From Acidobacteriota bacterium (GTDB lineage: Bacteria > Acidobacteriota > Vicinamibacteria > Vicinamibacterales > UBA8438): a stretch of DNA of 35,149 nt. Position numbers and translations under genes: made by a program. How positions within the stretch are numbered: position 1 is the stretch's first letter; every line of letters begins with the position of its first letter. The notes beneath the pieces were generated by a model. The model was not told the DNA's origin. It saw only the letters and a program-made list of their open reading frames with translations, and did no database searches. The stretch covers positions 1-35,149 of the forward strand of contig DQNS01000057.1 of the NCBI GenBank assembly GCA_015659035.1. The letters run 5' to 3'. Shown here piece after piece: positions 1,145-14,470 of this stretch.

Positions 1145-2812
1145 CTAATACATCACGAACGCATACAGCTGTCGGCCGGAGGCGACCAGCACATGCTGGC
1201 GCCCATCGATCAGATAGGTCTGCGGCGCGTTCGAGATGTTCCCGATGCGTGTGTGCCAGAGCAGATCGCCGTCGGCTGCATCGAACGCCACGAAGTTGCC
1301 GCTGCCGTCGCCCGTGAACACCAGGCCGCCCGCCGTGGTCAACACGCCGGCGCCGCCACCGCCACCGATCGGCCAGGCGTGGCGCCATGCGGTCTCGCCG
1401 GTGCGGTAGTCGATGGCCGACAGCGCATTGCCACCCGAGCCAACCGTGATACGGTCTTTGCCCCCGAGTCCCATCGACCCACGTGGATCCAGCTCCGTCA
1501 GATACAGCAGGTTGAACCCGTTGTTCTCCTGCGTGTAGAACAGCCCCGTGTCCGGGTTGAACGCCGGCGGCTGCCAGTTGGCCACGCCACCCTCGACCGG
1601 TGACACCAGCGCCCCCGGAACGATCGCTTCCTTCGCCGGATGCGGATTCGGAGACCCGTTCTCGCGGATGTGGCTCGCCCAATTCGACGTCGCGCCGTAT
1701 CGGGTCGTCACGATATGCTCGCCGGTCACCCGGTCGAGGGTGAAGAAATAGCCGTTCCGCGCCGCCGTCGACACGAGCTTCCGGGGCACCCCGTCGATGA
1801 CGCCGTCGATCAGGATCGGCGTCTGCGCCGAATCCCAGTCGTGCGTATCGTGCGGTGAGGTCTGGAAGTACCACGCCATCTCGCCGGTGTCGACATCGAC
1901 GGCGATGAGCGTGCAGGTGAACAGATTGTCACCGCGGCGCGCGACGCCGGTGTACCCGGGTGTCGGGTTCCCGGTGCCGAAGATGTAGTAGTTGGTCTCG
2001 GGGTCGTACGCCCCCGGTACCCAGACCTGCCCGCCGCCGTGTCGAGCCGCGTCGAGGGTCGGCCAGGTGTCGAGCCCCGGGTCGTCCGGGCTCATCGGGA
2101 CGGTATAGAACTTCCACCGCAGCTCGCCGGTCTCCGGGTCGAACGACTGGAGAAAGCCGGGTGCATCGAGGTCGTTGCCGGTCCCGACCAGCAGATGGTC
2201 GCCGACCACGATCGGCGCCATGGTCGAAAAATACTGCTCCTCGAAGCTGGCGATCTCGGTGTGCCAACGCTCTTCACCGGTCCGCGCGTCGAGCGAGACG
2301 AGGTAGTTGTCGACCGTCTCGAAGATCAGCGAGTCGCGCCACAGCGCCGCGCCGCGATTGCCGATGTGGGGCCCTCCCCGCGTTTTCCAGAAGTAATGCC
2401 ATCGTTCGCCGCCGTCGCGCACGTCGAGCGCCCAAACATGGTCGGGCGCCGTCACGTAGAGGAGGTCGTCGACCTGCAGGATGGAGCCCTTGATACGCTG
2501 CGAGCCGATGGCGAAGTCGCCGGTCCCCTCGCCGCCGACAAACGTCGGCGCATTGGCGCCCTCGAGGGCCGGTGTCCCGGTATCCAACTGCCTGGTCCAC
2601 GCGAGCGTCAGACGCGAGACGTTGTCGGTGGTCACCTGCGTGAGTCCACTGTAGCGACGGCCGCTGTAATCACCCGAATAGGTGGGCCACGACTCTGCCA
2701 GCGGCGCGAGGAGCGACGCCGGGTCCAGGCCACCACGTTCCTGCGCAAGCGACACAGCCGGCACGACGATGACTGCAACGGCGAGCGCGACACATACAGG
2801 CTTCAATGTCAT
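1145..2812 (-). CDS. PQQ-dependent alcohol-type dehydrogenase (quinoprotein beta-propeller)
   Basis: The 555-residue protein has a signal peptide (about residues 1-23, ending SLAQ) and then an eight-bladed-type quinoprotein propeller. Blade repeats with the pattern A-x-D-x-x-T-G-E-x-x-W recur (ALDVRDGGERW, SLDARTGEERW, AVDVDTGEMAW, AIDYRTGETAW). The family hallmark HDTHDWDSAQTPIL occurs in mid-chain and carries the conserved Asp region near PQQ and the metal. WQPPAFNPDTGLFYTQ is also typical of methanol/ethanol-type quinoproteins. It should oxidise an alcohol or sugar in the periplasm and pass electrons to cytochrome c. Its ATG overlaps the stop of the dihaem cytochrome gene by 4 nt (ATGA), implying translational coupling and a working pair. 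I see no vicinal CysCys pair, unlike classical MxaF. The exact substrate is unknown. Confidence 0.92.
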   Translation of the reverse strand: MTLKPVCVALAVAVIVVPAVSLAQERGGLDPASLLAPLAESWPTYSGDYSGRRYSGLTQVTTDNVSRLTLAWTRQLDTGTPALEGANAPTFVGGEGTGDFAIGSQRIKGSILQVDDLLYVTAPDHVWALDVRDGGERWHYFWKTRGGPHIGNRGAALWRDSLIFETVDNYLVSLDARTGEERWHTEIASFEEQYFSTMAPIVVGDHLLVGTGNDLDAPGFLQSFDPETGELRWKFYTVPMSPDDPGLDTWPTLDAARHGGGQVWVPGAYDPETNYYIFGTGNPTPGYTGVARRGDNLFTCTLIAVDVDTGEMAWYFQTSPHDTHDWDSAQTPILIDGVIDGVPRKLVSTAARNGYFFTLDRVTGEHIVTTRYGATSNWASHIRENGSPNPHPAKEAIVPGALVSPVEGGVANWQPPAFNPDTGLFYTQENNGFNLLYLTELDPRGSMGLGGKDRITVGSGGNALSAIDYRTGETAWRHAWPIGGGGGAGVLTTAGGLVFTGDGSGNFVAFDAADGDLLWHTRIGNISNAPQTYLIDGRQHVLVASGRQLYAFVMY

Positions 2813-3651
2813 TGGAGAGTAACCAGATAGGCGGTGACGTTGTGAATGTCCTCGTCGCTGTAGCGGGGCAACATCTCCCGGTGGGTGGCCAGCGGGTCGT
2901 CCACCTCCACCACCGGCGTGTCACCGTGTCGGCTGAACGACCGATGCCGGCCGTCGGCCTCGGTGAGCACGACCAGGAAGTCGTTGAGCCGTTCGAGCCG
3001 GCCCACCACTCGCTCACCCGACGACTGGGTGACCGTCACGGTGATGGGAGGGCGGTCGGCGTTCCGTGCGCCACCCCTGACCCAGGTGTTCTGGAGCTGC
3101 TGCGCGCCGGGGATTCTTGCTCCGATGCCCTGCAGGTCACCCGTCGGCGAATGACACGAGGCGCACCTGGCGGCGAAGTAGGTCTGCCCGGCCGCCGCAT
3201 CGCCCACGAGAATATCGAGCTCGACTTCATCACCCAGCGGCGGTCCACCCTGGCGGGACGCGGTGCCGAGCACGTCGTGGATATACTCGACAACCGCTCG
3301 ACTGTCAGCGTCGGACAGCGGCTGGGGCGGCATGCTGGACCCGCCGGCGCCTGATTGGCCGTCGCGGATGACCGGCAGCATCTCCTCGCCCCGCTGATCC
3401 CTCAGCACCAGTTGTGAGCGGAGCAGATTCGGCCCTCCGAGATCACCGCCTCGGAGGTCGAGGCCGTGACAGGCGCGACAGTTGATGCCGTACAGCGCCT
3501 GACCGCGGGCGATCAGCTCGGGATCACCGGGTGGACGCTGGAGGGCCGGATACAGCTGCTGGCTACGGTCCTGACCCGCCGGCGCGGCGTGCGCCCCGAC
3601 CTGAACAGCCACGCCGGTCAGGATCACCGCACAGTATGTCAAGGCACGCAT
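2809..3651 (-). CDS. Dihaem c-type cytochrome, partner of the PQQ dehydrogenase
   Basis: The 280-residue secreted protein has a signal peptide ending around HAAPA. It has two haem-binding motifs: C58-RA-C61-H62 and C163-AS-C166-H167. Met107 (SSMPPQPLSD) and Met260 (EMLPRYSDED) are the likely distal ligands. The second module carries an insert (about residues 190-250, GERVVGRLERLNDFLVVLTEADG). An open frame continues upstream to 4230, but that part overlaps other genes and lacks cytochrome features. I therefore chose the ATG at 3651, directly before a good signal sequence. The stop overlaps the start of the PQQ dehydrogenase by 4 nt. Inferred role: electron acceptor for the quinoprotein, passing electrons toward a terminal oxidase. 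Confidence 0.93.
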   Translation of the reverse strand: MRALTYCAVILTGVAVQVGAHAAPAGQDRSQQLYPALQRPPGDPELIARGQALYGINCRACHGLDLRGGDLGGPNLLRSQLVLRDQRGEEMLPVIRDGQSGAGGSSMPPQPLSDADSRAVVEYIHDVLGTASRQGGPPLGDEVELDILVGDAAAGQTYFAARCASCHSPTGDLQGIGARIPGAQQLQNTWVRGGARNADRPPITVTVTQSSGERVVGRLERLNDFLVVLTEADGRHRSFSRHGDTPVVEVDDPLATHREMLPRYSDEDIHNVTAYLVTLQ

Positions 3652-3745
3652 GCCGCCGATTATACGCTCACAACGGCGGCAGACCCTTATTCCCGGCGAA
3701 GCGGTGGTGGCGCAGCCTGGTCGAGTCCTCGCGTACTGGTCGAGA

Positions 3746-3946
3746 TCAGCGACCAGGCTCCCGCCGCACGAAGCCCGCACAGTCCGTGACCGGCAGGACG
3801 GGGTACTTCGCATAGCGGTGGTCCACGGCAGACAACCCGCACAGGTAATAGATATTCCCGTCGTCGCTCGTGATGATGCGAACGTTGCGGCAACGACCGC
3901 ACAGACCGGCGGGACAGGGCGCATCCTCGGAGTCACGACTGTCCAC
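3746..3946 (-). CDS. Small four-cysteine protein (putative metal-binding, 66 aa)
   Basis: A short frame within a longer open frame encodes cysteines at about positions 16, 19, 36 and 56 (pattern C-x2-C-x16-C-x19-C) in GRCRNVRIITS, YYLCGLSAVD and PVTDCAGF. It resembles a widespread family of roughly 60-residue conserved hypothetical proteins with a CxxC knuckle and a CxGF-like end. I chose the GTG at 3946 because GAGGT lies 6 nt upstream and the cysteine-rich core follows. That start overlaps the stop of the upstream binding-protein gene (3933) by 14 nt, so the two are probably co-translated. Function unknown; zinc or iron binding is a guess from the cysteines. The 94 nt between it and the cytochrome gene show nothing obvious. 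Confidence 0.66.
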   Translation of the reverse strand: MDSRDSEDAPCPAGLCGRCRNVRIITSDDGNIYYLCGLSAVDHRYAKYPVLPVTDCAGFVRREPGR

Positions 3947-4841
3947 GAGCTGACCTCGGTGTCCACGTGGTCGTCGGTCGTGCTGGCGGCGTCGACACTC
4001 CCGCGGGAAGATCCGTGCGCTCTTCGCAGGCCAGCAAGGGATCCGGTGCGACGCCCACGGTGTGGGCGATAAGCCTGTGTAGTTGCCTGAGTCCTTCGGT
4101 GAGCGCCGCGGGACCAGGTTGCAGGATGTAGGTCGATTTGATCTCGTAGACATGACCGTGTTGGACGGCGGCGGTCCGGTGCCAGTCGGGCCGGGTCTCG
4201 ATGGTCTTCTTCCGAACCGCCTTGCCGCACCAGGAAGCGATGATGAGCTCAGGGTCTCGGGCTACGACCTCCGCCGGACTCACGACCCGATTGGTCGCCA
4301 GGCTCTCGGTCCTCAGCTCCGGAAACAGTGTTGCACCGCCGGCGATGTCAATCAGTTCGTCGACCCACCGAATCCCCGAGATCAACGGGTCGTCCCACTC
4401 CTCGAAAAAAACCCGCGGCCGAAACGGAAACGCCTCGGCTGCTCGACGCGCCGTCTCGAGACCAGCCGCCAGCTCATTGGCCAGCGCGTCAGCGCGCTCC
4501 ACGCGTCCGACGATGCCACCCAGCATGCGCACCATCTGGAGGATCTCCGCCACGCTGCGTTGATTGAACGTGAACACCGGCAGCCCGCGGCGAATCAGCT
4601 CGGCGGTGATGTCGGCCTGCAGATCGGAGAAGGCCAGCACCAGGTCTGGTCGCAGCGCCTCGATCTTGTCGAATCGCGCGTTGATGAATGCGGAGACCTT
4701 GGGCTTGGAACGTGCCTCCGGCGGCCGGACCGTATAGCCCGAGATGCCGACGACGCGGTCCCCTTCGCCGAGCCGATAGAGGGTTTCGGTCGTCTCCTCC
4801 GTGAGGCAGACGATCCGTTCAGGGAATCCCGAAAGCACCAT
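3933..4841 (-). CDS. BtuF/FhuD-like substrate-binding protein (cobalamin-binding type)
   Basis: The 302-residue protein fits the periplasmic binding protein family of vitamin B12 and iron-siderophore ABC transporters. It opens RIVCLTEETTETLYRLGEGDRVVGIS, has KIEALRPDLVLAF in the first lobe, the long connecting helix (MVRMLGGIVGRVERADAL), and the second-lobe pattern FEEWDDPLISGIRWVDELIDIAGG. The start at 4841 places the family core immediately after the Met; no signal peptide is visible. No permease or ATPase gene lies nearby. Members of this soluble, orphan type are often annotated as cobalamin-binding proteins. Upstream codons of the open frame to 4991 look non-coding. The C-terminal 30 residues (rich in Pro, Thr and Arg) look disordered. 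It heads the minus-strand cluster. Ligand uncertain. Confidence 0.82.
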   Translation of the reverse strand: MVLSGFPERIVCLTEETTETLYRLGEGDRVVGISGYTVRPPEARSKPKVSAFINARFDKIEALRPDLVLAFSDLQADITAELIRRGLPVFTFNQRSVAEILQMVRMLGGIVGRVERADALANELAAGLETARRAAEAFPFRPRVFFEEWDDPLISGIRWVDELIDIAGGATLFPELRTESLATNRVVSPAEVVARDPELIIASWCGKAVRKKTIETRPDWHRTAAVQHGHVYEIKSTYILQPGPAALTEGLRQLHRLIAHTVGVAPDPLLACEERTDLPAGVSTPPARPTTTWTPRSARGQS

Positions 4842-8955: not shown

Positions 8956-8983
8956 GCTTTGATTGGGCGACGCGGAGGACGAC

Positions 8984-8989
8984 AGTATA
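8984..8989 (-). promoter_or_regulatory. Putative -10 element for the DUF5916 gene
   Basis: The minus strand reads TATACT here (plus: AGTATA), about 29 nt upstream of the GTG start, giving a short leader. No convincing -35 is visible at the right spacing. The same TATAnT type recurs before msrA, the 27581-28516 gene and the 12362-13360 gene. Confidence 0.4.
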
Positions 8990-9088
8990 GACTTTCAAGG
9001 CACGAGGCCGTTCGCCACCTGGCCGAACAGCCTCGCCGGTTCACGCATCGGTCGGCGGTCCGGCCGAGCCAACAGGAGACACAACAAC

Positions 9089-10465
9089 ATGACTCATCGC
9101 GTGACGAACCGCCAGACGCCCGAGCTCGTGCGGTGTCTCGCGCTTGCCGTCTGCGTGCTGCTGATGGCCCCGCCGCTGGTCGCCAATGACTGGCCCGAAT
9201 GGCGTGGCGCCGGACGCGACGGCGTGTGGACCGACACCGGGATCGTGCAGGAGCTGCCCGCCGAATTGACGGTGAAGTGGCGGGTGCCGGTCAACGCGGG
9301 GTTTTCCGGCCCCGCTGTCGTCGATGGCCGGGTGTTCATCACCGACTGGGCGGAGGATCCTGCGTCTCGGACGATGGACGGGACAGAGCGGGCGATCGCG
9401 CTCGACGAGGAGACCGGGGAGATCCTGTGGACCCGCGAGTGGCCCACTTCGTATCGGATGTTGATGGTCTCGTACGCCATCGGGCCACGGGCGACGCCGA
9501 CGGTCGACGGGGACCGAGTGTACGTGGTCGGCGCCGCGGGCGATCTCTTCTGTCTGGATGTCGAGACCGGTGCCGTGATCTGGGAACGGCACTACATCGA
9601 GGAGTTCGACAGTTTCATCCCGACCTGGGGTGTCGCCAGCTCGCCGATCGTCGATGGCGATCGTCTGATCACCGTCGTCGGCGCCGAGCCTGGCGGTGTG
9701 GTCGTGGCGTTCGACAAGCGGACCGGGGAGGAGGTCTGGCGTGCGCTCGACGTGGTCGGGGAGATGGGGTACGGCCAGCCGATCATCATCGAGGCGGGTG
9801 GTGCCCGTCAGTTGATCGTCTGGCACGCCGCGGCACTGGTCTCGCTCAACCCCGAGACCGGGGAACTCTATTGGGCGGAGGAGTGGGAGGCTGGGGGCGG
9901 CATGTCGGTGGCCACGCCTGTGCACAGTGGCAACTACCTGCTGGTGACACAGTTCTACCGCGGCTCGCTGATGATGCGGCTCGACCAGGACCGTCCGACC
10001 GCCAGCTTACTCTGGAAGGGCCAGAGCCGAAGCGAAATGCCCGACCAGACCGACGGTCTGCATTCGCTGATCACCACACCGCTGATCATCGGCGACAACT
10101 TCTACGGTGTCGGCAGCTACGGCGAGTTGCGGGGTCTGGATGCGACAACCGGTGAGCGTCTGTGGATGAGCGACCAGATGGTCGCCCAGGGCCGGTGGGG
10201 CTCCGCGTTCATGGTCAAACAGGGCGACCGCTACTTCGTCAACAACGATGACGGGTTCCTCATCATCGCAGAGTTCACGCCGGACGGCTACGTGGAACAC
10301 AGCCGCACCCGGCTGATCGAACCGACCGGCAGCTCCGGCTTCGGGCCCGCCCGCCGATGGGACCGAGCCATCAACTGGACGCACCCGGCCTACGCCAACC
10401 GGCATATCGTCCACCGAAACGACAACGAGATCATCCGCGCGTCCCTGGACGCCTCGGACTACTAA
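9089..10465 (+). CDS. Secreted PQQ-like beta-propeller protein, paralogue 2
   Basis: The 458-residue protein starts at ATG 9089 with GGAG about 10 nt upstream. A signal peptide (LALAVCVLLMAPPLVA) is followed by NDWPEWRGAGRDGVW. Blade motifs are ALDEETGEILW, CLDVETGAVIW, AFDKRTGEEVW, SLNPETGELYW and GLDATTGERLW. The end, HPAYANRHIVHRNDNEII, parallels paralogue 1 almost residue for residue. It is transcribed divergently from the DUF5916 gene and is followed 94 nt later by the LDI-like gene, so these two may be co-transcribed. As with its paralogue, no CxxCH haem site is present. Possible roles are a quinoprotein of unknown substrate or a BamB-like scaffold. Confidence 0.87.
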   Translation: MTHRVTNRQTPELVRCLALAVCVLLMAPPLVANDWPEWRGAGRDGVWTDTGIVQELPAELTVKWRVPVNAGFSGPAVVDGRVFITDWAEDPASRTMDGTERAIALDEETGEILWTREWPTSYRMLMVSYAIGPRATPTVDGDRVYVVGAAGDLFCLDVETGAVIWERHYIEEFDSFIPTWGVASSPIVDGDRLITVVGAEPGGVVVAFDKRTGEEVWRALDVVGEMGYGQPIIIEAGGARQLIVWHAAALVSLNPETGELYWAEEWEAGGGMSVATPVHSGNYLLVTQFYRGSLMMRLDQDRPTASLLWKGQSRSEMPDQTDGLHSLITTPLIIGDNFYGVGSYGELRGLDATTGERLWMSDQMVAQGRWGSAFMVKQGDRYFVNNDDGFLIIAEFTPDGYVEHSRTRLIEPTGSSGFGPARRWDRAINWTHPAYANRHIVHRNDNEIIRASLDASDY

Positions 10466-10559: not shown

Positions 10560-12365
10560 ATGACTGCCGAGAAGGGATATTCGCGGCGGGACTTCGTGAA
10601 GCGGGTCGGCTCGGCGGCCGGCGCTGTGGCGCTGTCGCCCGCCGCCGTCGGGGCGAGCGGCCTGGCGCAGGCGCCAGCCGAAGCCCTGCCGATGCTTCAT
10701 GAGACACCCCGATCGGTGTTTCCCACGCTGAACGGCCGGACACGCGGGTGGTTGCGCTTTCTGTGGGAGAAGGCGACCACCGACGACGACTGGAGCTCGG
10801 CCGGCGTGCCCCACCAGTGGTGGGACCGCTACTCCGCCCCGGTCGTGCTCAGCTACGGACGTTTCGACCTGTCGTTCTCCTCCTACGCCCTGCTGCTCAT
10901 GGCAGACCAAACGCCGGCCTGGCGCGAGGTCTACACGCGGATCGCCGACGGATTCGCCGGCCGCTATCCGACCTACTGGGGCGCCATCGACTGGCTGACT
11001 CAGATTGGCGACGACCCGAAACGCGAGAACTATCCACCCCGGGTCATGGCGGGCATCCCCGAGCGGTTGCGCGGGAACTACAACCGATTCGGCTGGACCG
11101 CGAACGGTGTCGAACCGTGGGGGCTGCAGCCCGACCCGATCGGCGCCGACGGCTACCTCTTCTTTCGCGGCTGGTTCACCCTGCTGCTCTCGATCTACAA
11201 GTACGTCTCGGGCGACGACAAGTACACGCGGCCGTTCCCGGTGACCGGCTACCGGGACCAGATGTTCGAGTGGGACCACCATCGCATCGCCGAGCACATG
11301 GAGCGGCAGTATCAGGCGCATCCGGAGGGACCGCAGTGCGAGAACACCAAGATCTGGTTCTACTGCAACAGCGCCGGCGGTCTCGGCATGCATCTCTACG
11401 ACCGGGTGTTCGGCAAACAGACACACCGTGCCTTCGAGAACTTCCTGGAGTATGCGGGCGAGAACTACATGGGCCTGTCGAACGACGGCGGGCTCGAGTG
11501 GGTCACGAGCTACTACGACCCGATCGTGAACCACAAGGCGAACGCCGGCCCGGCGGGTGGGATCGCGACCGCGTTCATGGTGCTGCCGCAGAACCGCGAG
11601 CTGGCGACGACGCTCTACGACGCCGCAGCCAACTCGCTCGGCTGGCGCGACTCGCAGCGACCGATTCGCGCGAATGCCACCGGTCTGCTCCTGGCCCGCG
11701 CGCTCGGTGACCACACGGCGATCGCCCGGCTGCGGGCCGCGGCCGAACGGGAATACGACCCTCGTTTCTTCGGCGACCACGACGAGAAGTTCGGTTGGTT
11801 CTTCGGGCTGAACGAGGCGTATCCGCGGGGCCAGCGGAGCGCGACCATGATGGTGTCCGAGGTCGGAAACGACGGCGACTGGATTCGGGCGTTCGAGGCG
11901 CCGTACATGGACAAGTTCGACGCACCCACCGTCGAGGGCGTCGACTTTCCCTCGCTCGGGCTGTATCAGGCGTGGAACGACACCGACAGCGGGACCCTCT
12001 ACGTCGGCACCTATCCCACGTCACCCGACCGACGCGGCGTCGAAACGACCTGGCGCGTGACCAATCTGCCGAACACGGCAGACGTCTTCATCCTCTGCGA
12101 CGGCGAGCCGTTCGACCGGTTCGAGGCGACGGACGACGGCACCATCAGGCTCGAGACGACGCTCGACGCCAGGCAGTATCAGATCTTCACGGGGTATCGG
12201 GGCCCAGGCGGGCCGCCGACGGCCAGACGGCAGGAGCCGCGGGCCGGTCGTGCAGCGGCGGGACTGGCGGCGTCCCGACCACCGGCTGACGACACTCGGG
12301 CGGCCACGCGAAGGGCGAGGAGCGAGATCGTACAGGGTGGCGGACCGACCTGTCCCTGCTGCTAA
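10560..12365 (+). CDS. Tat-exported linalool dehydratase/isomerase-like (LDI) protein
   Basis: The 601-residue protein starts at ATG 10560 with GAGGAG 8 nt upstream. A near-perfect twin-arginine signal (SRRDFVK, residues 8-14) sends it to the periplasm. Residues about 70-420 look like the (alpha/alpha)6 barrel of linalool dehydratase/isomerase from Castellaniella. The key match is C260-ENTKIWFY-C269-NS followed by LYDR. As I remember the enzyme, it has CEP-x6-CNS and YDR with catalytic Cys171 and Cys180, the same 9-residue separation. Its catalytic His129 (YKGH) aligns with Trp205 here (FFRGW), so the chemistry may differ. Beyond the barrel lie a probable beta-sandwich (about 460-548) and a low-complexity tail ending GGGPTCPCC, so the protein is about 200 residues longer than LDI. 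The stop overlaps the converging gene's stop by 4 nt. Substrate unknown; an allylic or terpenoid alcohol is a guess. Confidence 0.75.
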   Translation: MTAEKGYSRRDFVKRVGSAAGAVALSPAAVGASGLAQAPAEALPMLHETPRSVFPTLNGRTRGWLRFLWEKATTDDDWSSAGVPHQWWDRYSAPVVLSYGRFDLSFSSYALLLMADQTPAWREVYTRIADGFAGRYPTYWGAIDWLTQIGDDPKRENYPPRVMAGIPERLRGNYNRFGWTANGVEPWGLQPDPIGADGYLFFRGWFTLLLSIYKYVSGDDKYTRPFPVTGYRDQMFEWDHHRIAEHMERQYQAHPEGPQCENTKIWFYCNSAGGLGMHLYDRVFGKQTHRAFENFLEYAGENYMGLSNDGGLEWVTSYYDPIVNHKANAGPAGGIATAFMVLPQNRELATTLYDAAANSLGWRDSQRPIRANATGLLLARALGDHTAIARLRAAAEREYDPRFFGDHDEKFGWFFGLNEAYPRGQRSATMMVSEVGNDGDWIRAFEAPYMDKFDAPTVEGVDFPSLGLYQAWNDTDSGTLYVGTYPTSPDRRGVETTWRVTNLPNTADVFILCDGEPFDRFEATDDGTIRLETTLDARQYQIFTGYRGPGGPPTARRQEPRAGRAAAGLAASRPPADDTRAATRRARSEIVQGGGPTCPCC

Positions 12366-13360
12366 GGCTGTTCCGCCGCCGCCTCCTCGGCGCGGGCGCC
12401 GGACAGAATGCCGGCTATGGCGTAGTTCCCTTCGTGGCACGCATACTCGAATATCGACTCTTCCGACCCCTTCAACGGAATCATGAGGGTCCAGGGCTGG
12501 GCCCACGTGTCCGGGTCGTCGAAGGTGACCACGTACTCGACGATGTCTGGCGCGACCCGGGTGAACCGTTCGATGACCCGGACGTTCTCGGTGGCACCCC
12601 GGTAGGCGCCGCGGCGCGAGTAGTTGGTCGTCTCCACCACCAGCGTGTCGCCGTCCCAATGCCCGCGTGAGTCGCCGTGTAGCTGGCGCACCGTGGCATC
12701 CAGATGTGGCGAGTCGTCGATCGGGATGACACGCGCGTCGTGGATCAGCTCCTGCATGACGACGACGTGGTCGGCCGACTGAAAGATCTGAAAGTAGCTG
12801 TTGTAGCCGGCCAACAGATTCGGCACGCCATAGGAGATGCAGCGGTCCAGCATGCTCCGGCGCTCGTGCGAGTCGGCTCGGCCGCCCGTCGGGCGGGGCT
12901 GACTCCGGCGGCGCTCGCGCGCCTCCTCGGTGACGGGCGGAATGCGGCCGTTCGGCGGGTCGACGATGAGGGATGTCCGGTTGTCGAGCTCACGCTCGAC
13001 CAGCCAGAACGAGTTGTAGTTCCCGGTCCCGGCATCAAACTCCCGGAAGTTCGGGTCCTCCAGCACCTGTTGAAACAGGAGGGGACCGAGGAGGTTGCCC
13101 GCCTGTTCGTTCGCGTGCAGCTCGGCCGCGCGGGCCTGATACACCGCCAGCTCCTCGTCTGTCAGCGACTCCTTACCCTCGAACGCCGCGGGGCGCTGCA
13201 TCGGGGTCGCGCTGTTGTTCGCCCAGACGCCCTGGAGGTCCGGGTGGCCATCGGCGGTGCGCGGCACCCTCCAGTTCTGCTGCGCCCACGCCGTTCCGTA
13301 CGTCAGGCAAACCACCGCCGCAATACTGATCGCGATCCGGCACCCCACTCGACGTCTCAT
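12362..13360 (-). CDS. Secreted protein of unknown function (PDLQGVW / GHWDGDTLVV family)
   Basis: The 332-residue protein starts at ATG 13360 behind a perfect AAGGAGG (spacing about 7). The signal peptide ends TAWAQQ. The body has motifs I associate with a family abundant in Acidobacteriota: HPDLQGVWAN near the N terminus, and DSRGHWDGDTLVVETTNY followed by ERFTRVAPDIVEYVVTFDDPDTW in the C-terminal half. The strand-rich C-terminal half suggests a beta-barrel or lipocalin-like fold, but I know of no demonstrated function. The gene converges on the LDI-like gene, sharing 4 nt (CTAA) that hold both stop codons, so neither has room for a terminator. Confidence 0.85.
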   Translation of the reverse strand: MRRRVGCRIAISIAAVVCLTYGTAWAQQNWRVPRTADGHPDLQGVWANNSATPMQRPAAFEGKESLTDEELAVYQARAAELHANEQAGNLLGPLLFQQVLEDPNFREFDAGTGNYNSFWLVERELDNRTSLIVDPPNGRIPPVTEEARERRRSQPRPTGGRADSHERRSMLDRCISYGVPNLLAGYNSYFQIFQSADHVVVMQELIHDARVIPIDDSPHLDATVRQLHGDSRGHWDGDTLVVETTNYSRRGAYRGATENVRVIERFTRVAPDIVEYVVTFDDPDTWAQPWTLMIPLKGSEESIFEYACHEGNYAIAGILSGARAEEAAAEQP

Positions 13361-13793: not shown

Positions 13794-14039
13794 ATGAAGA
13801 CGACCGTCGAGATTCCGGATGCGCTCCTCATCGAAGCCAAGCAACTAGCAGCCAGCCAGCACACGACCGTCCGGGCGCTGATCGAACAGGGCCTGCAACG
13901 GGTGCTCGTCGAGAGGAAAGGGCGCGCGGTCCATCGGCTGCGGCAAGCGAGCTTCGCCGGCGAGGGCTTGCAGCCGGACGTGCGGGAGGGAGCCTGGGAA
14001 CGCCTACGGGAACTGGCCTATGAGGGTCGTGGCGGATGA
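13794..14039 (+). CDS. vapB: Type II antitoxin, VapB family
   Basis: The 81-residue protein opens MKTTVEIPDALLIEAKQLA followed by TTVRALIEQGLQRVL, the ribbon-helix-helix pattern of VapB-type antitoxins (a strand, then helices with A-x-x-L-I-x-x-G-L). The variable C-terminal part (about 45-81), rich in charged and aromatic residues, should wrap and inhibit the toxin. ATG 13794 was chosen because it begins the conserved MKTT strand; an upstream in-frame ATG at 13782 would add four residues. The stop TGA overlaps the toxin ATG by 4 nt. It is expected to neutralise VapC and repress its own promoter. Confidence 0.85.
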   Translation: MKTTVEIPDALLIEAKQLAASQHTTVRALIEQGLQRVLVERKGRAVHRLRQASFAGEGLQPDVREGAWERLRELAYEGRGG

Positions 14040-14470
14040 TTGCCCTCGACACGAATCTTCTCGTCTACGCCCACCGGGAGGATTCTCCATGGCACGAGCC
14101 GGCGACACGGTGTGTGACGGCGCTGGCCGAGGGTCGGAGCGACTGGGCTATTCCATGGCCGTGCCTGCACGAGTTTCTCGCCATCGTGACCCACCCCCGT
14201 ATCTATCGGCCTCCGACCCCGCCCGAGCTGGCCCTCGACCAGGTCGCAGCCTGGATGGAAACACCGACGCTGGTCCTGCTGGGGGAGTCCGTCGGGTACT
14301 GGGACCAACTGCGCGCCGCGGTGCTGGAAAGCCAGGTAACGGGCCCACGGGTGCACGACGCCCGGGTGGCGGTCCTATGCCTGCACCATGGCGTCGACGA
14401 GCTGTGGTCGGCGGACCGCGACTTTGGCCGGTTCGCGGGACTCAAGGTCCGCAATCCGTTGGTGTCGTAA
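14036..14470 (+). CDS. vapC: Type II toxin VapC, PIN-domain ribonuclease
   Basis: The 144-residue PIN-domain protein has the expected acidic metal site: Asp5 (MIALDTNLLVYAHR), Glu46 (PWPCLHEFLAIV), Asp108 (RVHDARVAVLCLHHGV) and Asp127 (LWSADRDF). All four residues are intact, so it is probably an active Mg-dependent endoribonuclease, typically cutting tRNA or rRNA. It is coupled to the antitoxin through an ATGA overlap. Length matches the family. Confidence 0.9.
   Translation: MIALDTNLLVYAHREDSPWHEPATRCVTALAEGRSDWAIPWPCLHEFLAIVTHPRIYRPPTPPELALDQVAAWMETPTLVLLGESVGYWDQLRAAVLESQVTGPRVHDARVAVLCLHHGVDELWSADRDFGRFAGLKVRNPLVS

Follow-up and report, generated by a model that had tools for sequence, protein, structure and literature searches.

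The gene at positions 10560-12365 of the window, the whole analysed stretch of 35,149 nt (contig DQNS01000057.1, assembly GCA_015659035.1, Acidobacteriota bacterium (UBA8438)), encodes an exported relative of linalool dehydratase/isomerase (LDI) whose function is uncharacterised. Judged by its sequence, it belongs to a separate clade of the Pfam family PF18566, described here for the first time, which carries a CENTKxW..C motif and spans five phyla. Because of the homology and a fixed Cys-Glu-Cys core, we favour on balance the reading that the product is a Tat-exported, presumably cofactor-free LDI-superfamily enzyme, a (de)hydratase-isomerase that would use cysteine acid/base catalysis on a lipophilic alkenol or alkene.

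The open reading frame proposed in an earlier, sequence-only reading of this DNA is present on the plus strand, with an ATG at 10560 and a product of 601 amino acids. Comparison with the nearest relative (L002, ~85% identity) gives 58, 32 and 123 differences at codon positions 1, 2 and 3, with dN 0.077, dS 0.32 and dN/dS 0.24. The codon-position pattern and the dN/dS ratio show that this is a real gene whose protein is under purifying selection. It is the sole PF18566 match in its own 3.18-Mb genome. The features of the gene are as follows.

10560..12365, plus strand, stop codon included: Ldi-superfamily (PF18566) protein, 601 aa, from Pfam, profile, fold and dN/dS
10560..10673, plus strand: predicted Tat signal peptide with SRRDFVKRVGSAAGAVALSPAA, residues 1-38, end estimated, from TIGR01409
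10728..11894, plus strand: (alpha/alpha) barrel domain, residues ~57-445, from AlphaFold and Foldseek (366 columns against 364 resolved LDI residues)
10785..10793, plus strand: D76-x-W78, clade-invariant, W78 aligning with LDI W54, from alignments
11172..11174, plus strand: W205, aligned with the catalytic His129 of LDI; clade members have W or F here; from the LDI profile alignment and the superfamily alignment
11337..11366, plus strand: CENTKIWFYC, with C260 and C269 equivalent to LDI C171 and C180 and E261 to E172, from alignments
11925..12191, plus strand: C-terminal beta-sandwich, residues ~456-544, from the AlphaFold model and the superfamily alignment
12192..12350, plus strand: linker, predicted disordered, residues 545-597, from pLDDT <50 from residue 552 and low conservation
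12351..12362, plus strand: C-terminal CPCC, residues 598-601, CxCC being terminal in most of the clade

Sequence profiles and fold both place the protein in the LDI superfamily. It matches the Pfam Ldi model with 55 bits (cut-off 26.1; E 1.2e-14) over profile positions 66-286 of 318. A single-sequence search of the PDB reached LDI at E 0.1 only; a profile built from 20 relatives (A1) matched every LDI entry, with E-values from 8e-12 to 5e-10, its sole other match being an antibody fragment at E 0.018, and LDI is the only significant family in this search. The AlphaFold model, a monomer of moderate confidence (pLDDT 77, pTM 0.78), was compared with the PDB using Foldseek. The top 27 matches are all LDI chains (E 3e-11 to 1e-9), with full LDI covered at a TM score of ~0.65 by target length and ~16% identity. 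A second tier, comprising a phage tail protein, GH127, GH9 and others, follows at E 5e-5 and weaker. The distant homology to LDI put forward in the sequence-only reading is thus borne out by the Pfam, profile and Foldseek results, and the structure search that it had proposed returns LDI as the best match. Glycosidases are not the best structural match, as their E-values are some six orders of magnitude worse than those of LDI.

We compared active-site residues in a superfamily alignment of 22 sequences, in which the LDI letters come from the printed PDB alignment. The LDI active-site residues have been reported as H128, Y44, D38, C179 and C170 (PMC12455561), equivalent to H129, Y45, D39, C180 and C171; the thiols at 170 and 179 (signal-less numbering) are essential and must be reduced (PMC6600392), and LDI is described without an associated cofactor (PMC6013536). 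As had been claimed, C260 and C269 lie nine residues apart like C171 and C180, with which they align, within CENTKIWFYCNS, and YDR is found at 280-282. The Cys-Glu-(7)-Cys core is common to this protein and all superfamily sequences compared, C260, E261 and C269 being unchanged in all 22; W140, D192-P193, D281 and D384 are also near-universal.

The replacement of LDI His129 by Trp205 is seen in two alignments, but it is not the oddity that it first appeared to be. His occupies this position in only 4 of the 22 sequences (LDI, L046, L053 and L057), with Tyr, Phe or Trp in the other 18. The non-His sequences include L036, L044 and L055, which have an N-terminal hydrophobic region like that of linalool isomerase (LIS), an active enzyme, and L044 is also close to LIS in length (~646 vs 644 aa). 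A replaced His is therefore what superfamily members usually have, and it does not mark an enzyme as dead or odd. LDI Asp39 and Tyr45 face A72 and a gap, the N-terminal stretch being the least certain part of the alignment, and neither position of the Cys49-Cys102 disulphide that caps the LDI active site holds a Cys here; the disulphide is absent from L046 as well. Asp39, Tyr45 and the capping disulphide are private to LDI within the alignment. D76 is a candidate acidic residue near the Asp39/Tyr45 region and may have a catalytic role.

Tat export, also part of the sequence-only reading, is predicted by a TIGR01409 match just above the curated cut-off (16.8 vs 16.7 bits) and by an RRxF motif kept in nearly all acidobacterial and gemmatimonad relatives. 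The extension of ~200 residues beyond LDI is real, but the beta-sandwich within it is the superfamily norm, being common to all compared clades and absent only from LDI and L046. That reading mentioned the tail and missed both the multi-phylum clade and the conserved terminal CxCC, which lies at the C-terminus or within four residues of the end in 26 of the 31 sequences read. The remaining five comprise two that genuinely lack it (L026 and L028) and three that are cut or differently extended there (L008, L012 and L030); the Streptomyces clade protein is without it. As L025, L031 and L048 have CxCC and no Tat signal, the tail is not tied to export. We also asked whether CxCC might serve as a sorting tag throughout the genome. 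When both strands of five genomes were scanned for the pattern, 26 such ends were counted vs 14 in a reversed control, two of the 26 being Ldi-like genes and the others pattern-level matches not checked against ORFs, and this idea was rejected for lack of clear support.

The tree, built by a quick method and with long branches that leave its deep order unsure, contains four groups: LDI with L046; the LIS-like proteins; proteins of R. erythropolis, Agrobacterium and Variovorax; and the clade of the 10560-12365 gene. This last clade has a long supported stem (20 rows including L049; SH-aLRT 99) and members in Acidobacteriota, Gemmatimonadota, Proteobacteria, Actinomycetota and Chloroflexota. Predicted Tat export marks one of its branches, and some members appear to be cytosolic. 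Of the 28 genomes in the family to which the window belongs, 19 carry a PF18566 gene (9 of the 11 of high quality), whereas a sample of 199 genomes across the phylum yielded only four with a gene of this type. Two of these four are in the same family; the others are L057, which the tree places elsewhere, and L058, whose score falls below the PF18566 cut-off. The gene is therefore a near-core trait of one acidobacterial family. A Tat-type member of the acidobacterial clade with 63% identity also occurs in a contig titled Bifidobacterium breve (L013, CALQBJ020000191.1), which is most likely a misnamed or contaminated bin.

Our literature search found no paper naming PF18566, and the literature retrieved on LDI and Acidobacteria contained no mention of LDI. 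The sole known sequence relative of LDI has been given as one linalool isomerase (2018 review, PMC6013536; 2019 paper, PMC6600392). Here the superfamily is broad and divides into about four clades. One of these is exported in part and is kept throughout a family of Acidobacteriota most of which are uncultured. Dozens of proteins thereby become new candidates for alkenol chemistry without a cofactor (dienes, tertiary alcohols). Because the His is often replaced while both Cys and the Glu are constant in the sequences compared, the need for His129 can be tested directly.

The closest characterised system is LDI itself (LinD; EC 4.2.1.127/5.4.4.4) from Castellaniella defragrans (PDB 5HLR, 5I3T, 5G1U), which converts linalool, myrcene and geraniol. 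It is an enzyme of a rare type that needs no cofactor to add water to terpene alcohols, to remove it or to shift it. The two proteins share an (alpha/alpha)6 barrel and, as predicted here, periplasmic export, and LDI C171, E172, C180, D117-P118, W54 and D192 all have counterparts. They differ at His129, in CENTK for the CEPDN of LDI, and in the Tat signal, beta-sandwich, linker and CxCC tail of a protein whose LDI relative uses Sec. LDI is a homopentamer with its active site between subunits; our model covers a single subunit. A close gammaproteobacterial relative of LDI, L046 (237 bits to 5I3T), keeps His129 and both Cys and has a Cys-bearing C-terminal extension (ACPACFWG).

LIS of Thauera linaloolentis 47Lol and the LIS-like L036, L044, L045 and L055 share the Cys-Glu-Cys core and the C-terminal sandwich with the 10560-12365 protein; among the LIS-like proteins, which represent this group in the alignment, the residue at the place of His129 is likewise aromatic. 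In LIS, four predicted transmembrane helices at the N-terminus serve as an anchor and the domain lies in the cytoplasm (PMC4791888). The protein studied here lacks such helices, with a predicted Tat signal followed by the barrel, and sits in a separate clade. An exported PF18566-type protein encoded on plasmid pRSLBG43 of Rhodococcus erythropolis BG43 (L053:7752-9452) resembles ours in its N-terminal RR signal, Cys-Glu-Cys core and sandwich, but it keeps His129, reads CEPNCIFQLC, has no CxCC tail and belongs to another clade. Its cluster holds aldehyde and alcohol dehydrogenases, an AMP-binding protein and a P450. The locus is of interest because myrcene-to-geraniol activity, by an enzyme about which little is known, has been reported in R. 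erythropolis MLT1 (PMC6013536).

In the reaction that we favour, the barrel would bind a lipophilic unsaturated alcohol or alkene, and the C260/C269 pair with E261 would act as the acid/base catalyst, so that water is removed, added or moved at an alkenol (dehydration, hydration or 1,3-isomerisation). As LDI His129, Asp39 and Tyr45 are absent, what remains of the polar role would have to be taken over by residues that do not vary in the clade, for example D76, D89 or D103. The CxCC on its flexible C-terminal arm may protect or re-reduce the catalytic thiols, a role suggested by the need of LDI and LIS for a reductant. One point in favour of this reading is L055, which resembles LIS, has Tyr in place of the His and is encoded near genes for alcohol and aldehyde dehydrogenases and a P450. 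Against it count the missing counterparts of LDI Asp39, Tyr45 and Cys49-Cys102 and the near absence of conserved neighbours in the Tat branch, the BamB-like propeller of the closest relatives excepted. For the arm, a redox role restricted to the periplasm is made less likely by L025, L031 and L048, which have CxCC and lack a Tat signal. That the arm swings to the Cys pair of its own or a neighbouring subunit, and keeps it reduced or shares in catalysis, is a speculative refinement that we hold to be unlikely. If true, CxCC arm and alkenol-type chemistry would form an undescribed combination, near-core in one acidobacterial family.

The CxCC tail could also mean that the LDI scaffold now serves thiol-disulphide or thiol-transfer chemistry, with the arm exchanging with C260/C269 and alkenol chemistry lost. 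Mercuric reductase and thioredoxin reductase have Cys tails at the C-terminus that exchange with their active sites in this way, and here too an extreme C-terminal CxCC follows a flexible linker in most members, a Cys pair lies in the core, and LDI His129, Asp39 and Tyr45 are not kept. However, the tail-less Streptomyces, Nocardioides and Ktedonospora members sit inside the clade and retain the CENTK..C core, and Pfam detects no flavin, NAD or thioredoxin-like domain in the 10560-12365 product. We regard this exchange as improbable. The loss of the three LDI residues would also suit a protein of LDI fold that binds lipids or isoprenoids and catalyses nothing, but 90 residues are invariant, both Cys and the Glu among them, and Cys and Glu are kept through the superfamily sequences compared, which makes a mere binding function more doubtful still. 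Least probable of all is a metal-dependent glycosidase-like enzyme with Zn held by C260, E261, C269 and perhaps the tail Cys: the GH127 beta-L-arabinofuranosidases do hold Zn with Cys and Glu and are, like this secreted, sandwich-bearing protein, (alpha/alpha)6 barrels with beta-sandwiches, but their fold matches (E 5e-5 to 1e-3, TM ~0.2, rmsd ~17) rank behind all 27 LDI chains, LDI, described without an associated cofactor, carries the same Cys-Glu-Cys, and the 10560-12365 protein matches no Pfam glycosidase family.

Features of the gene neighbourhoods that recur across loci include the following.

8963..10465, plus strand: PQQ_2/BamB-like beta-propeller protein, directly upstream, in the same order in L002, L003, L004 and L010
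L025:7321-7965, L026:7391-7957, L031:4989-5591 and L051:9369-9986: unassigned ~200-aa protein, encoded directly before the non-exported Ldi-like gene, Proteobacteria and Actinomycetota

A divergent DUF5916-type gene precedes the propeller gene in the window, L002, L003 and L004; the rest of the Tat branch has no widely conserved neighbour in the fetched loci. In Streptomyces, Nocardioides, Porticoccaceae and L031, the clade gene comes directly after that for the ~200-aa protein (alignment A2), which in Streptomyces and Nocardioides is itself preceded by an alpha/beta hydrolase gene. We considered the ~200-aa partner as an SCP2-type carrier and set this aside, as it has no Pfam or PDB match and its model (pLDDT 39) is too poor for a fold. 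Two alpha/beta hydrolase genes flank the Ktedonospora member, one akin to the Streptomyces neighbour and the other to the epoxide-hydrolase-like neighbour of a Variovorax superfamily member; an epoxide-hydrolase-like gene adjoins both L028, in the clade, and L052, elsewhere in the superfamily. Read by eye, CoA-linked catabolic genes surround L025 and L026, and non-exported members lie by acyl-CoA and enoyl-CoA genes. The neighbourhoods of the non-exported members fit catabolism of a lipophilic compound.

The sequence-only reading had attached significance to a position beside quinoproteins, but in this genome such a position says little. The genome contains 89 PQQ-domain stretches, an unusually large set that amounts to roughly 50 genes, about two dozen of them full length. 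With so many genes, nearness is expected by chance: at a density of ~1/60 kb, about one locus in four should have a PQQ-type gene no more than 8 kb away, and one was observed in 7 of 30 loci plus the window. We therefore rejected quinoprotein linkage of the Ldi-like gene. The nearest dehydrogenase-like gene in the window and its neighbour are as follows.

1145-2812, minus strand: PQQ-dehydrogenase-like gene, TIGR04528 acido-empty-quinoprotein group A, 714 bits against a cut-off of 650
2809-4230, minus strand: cytochrome c gene next to it

The TIGR04528 family name implies no PQQ, and the adjoining cytochrome c is a plausible electron acceptor. On the other side of the Ldi-like gene, whose end it overlaps by 4 bases at its own end, lies a minus-strand gene (12362-13360) for an exported-looking protein with the motifs DLQGVWxN and SLIxDPPxGRxPP. 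This protein and its 19 relatives in 11 fetched loci, some with multiple copies, have no Pfam or NCBIfam match. Further along, a short plus-strand open reading frame (14036-14470) starting MIALDTNLLVYAHREDSPWH resembles, by eye, a PIN-domain (VapC-like) protein.
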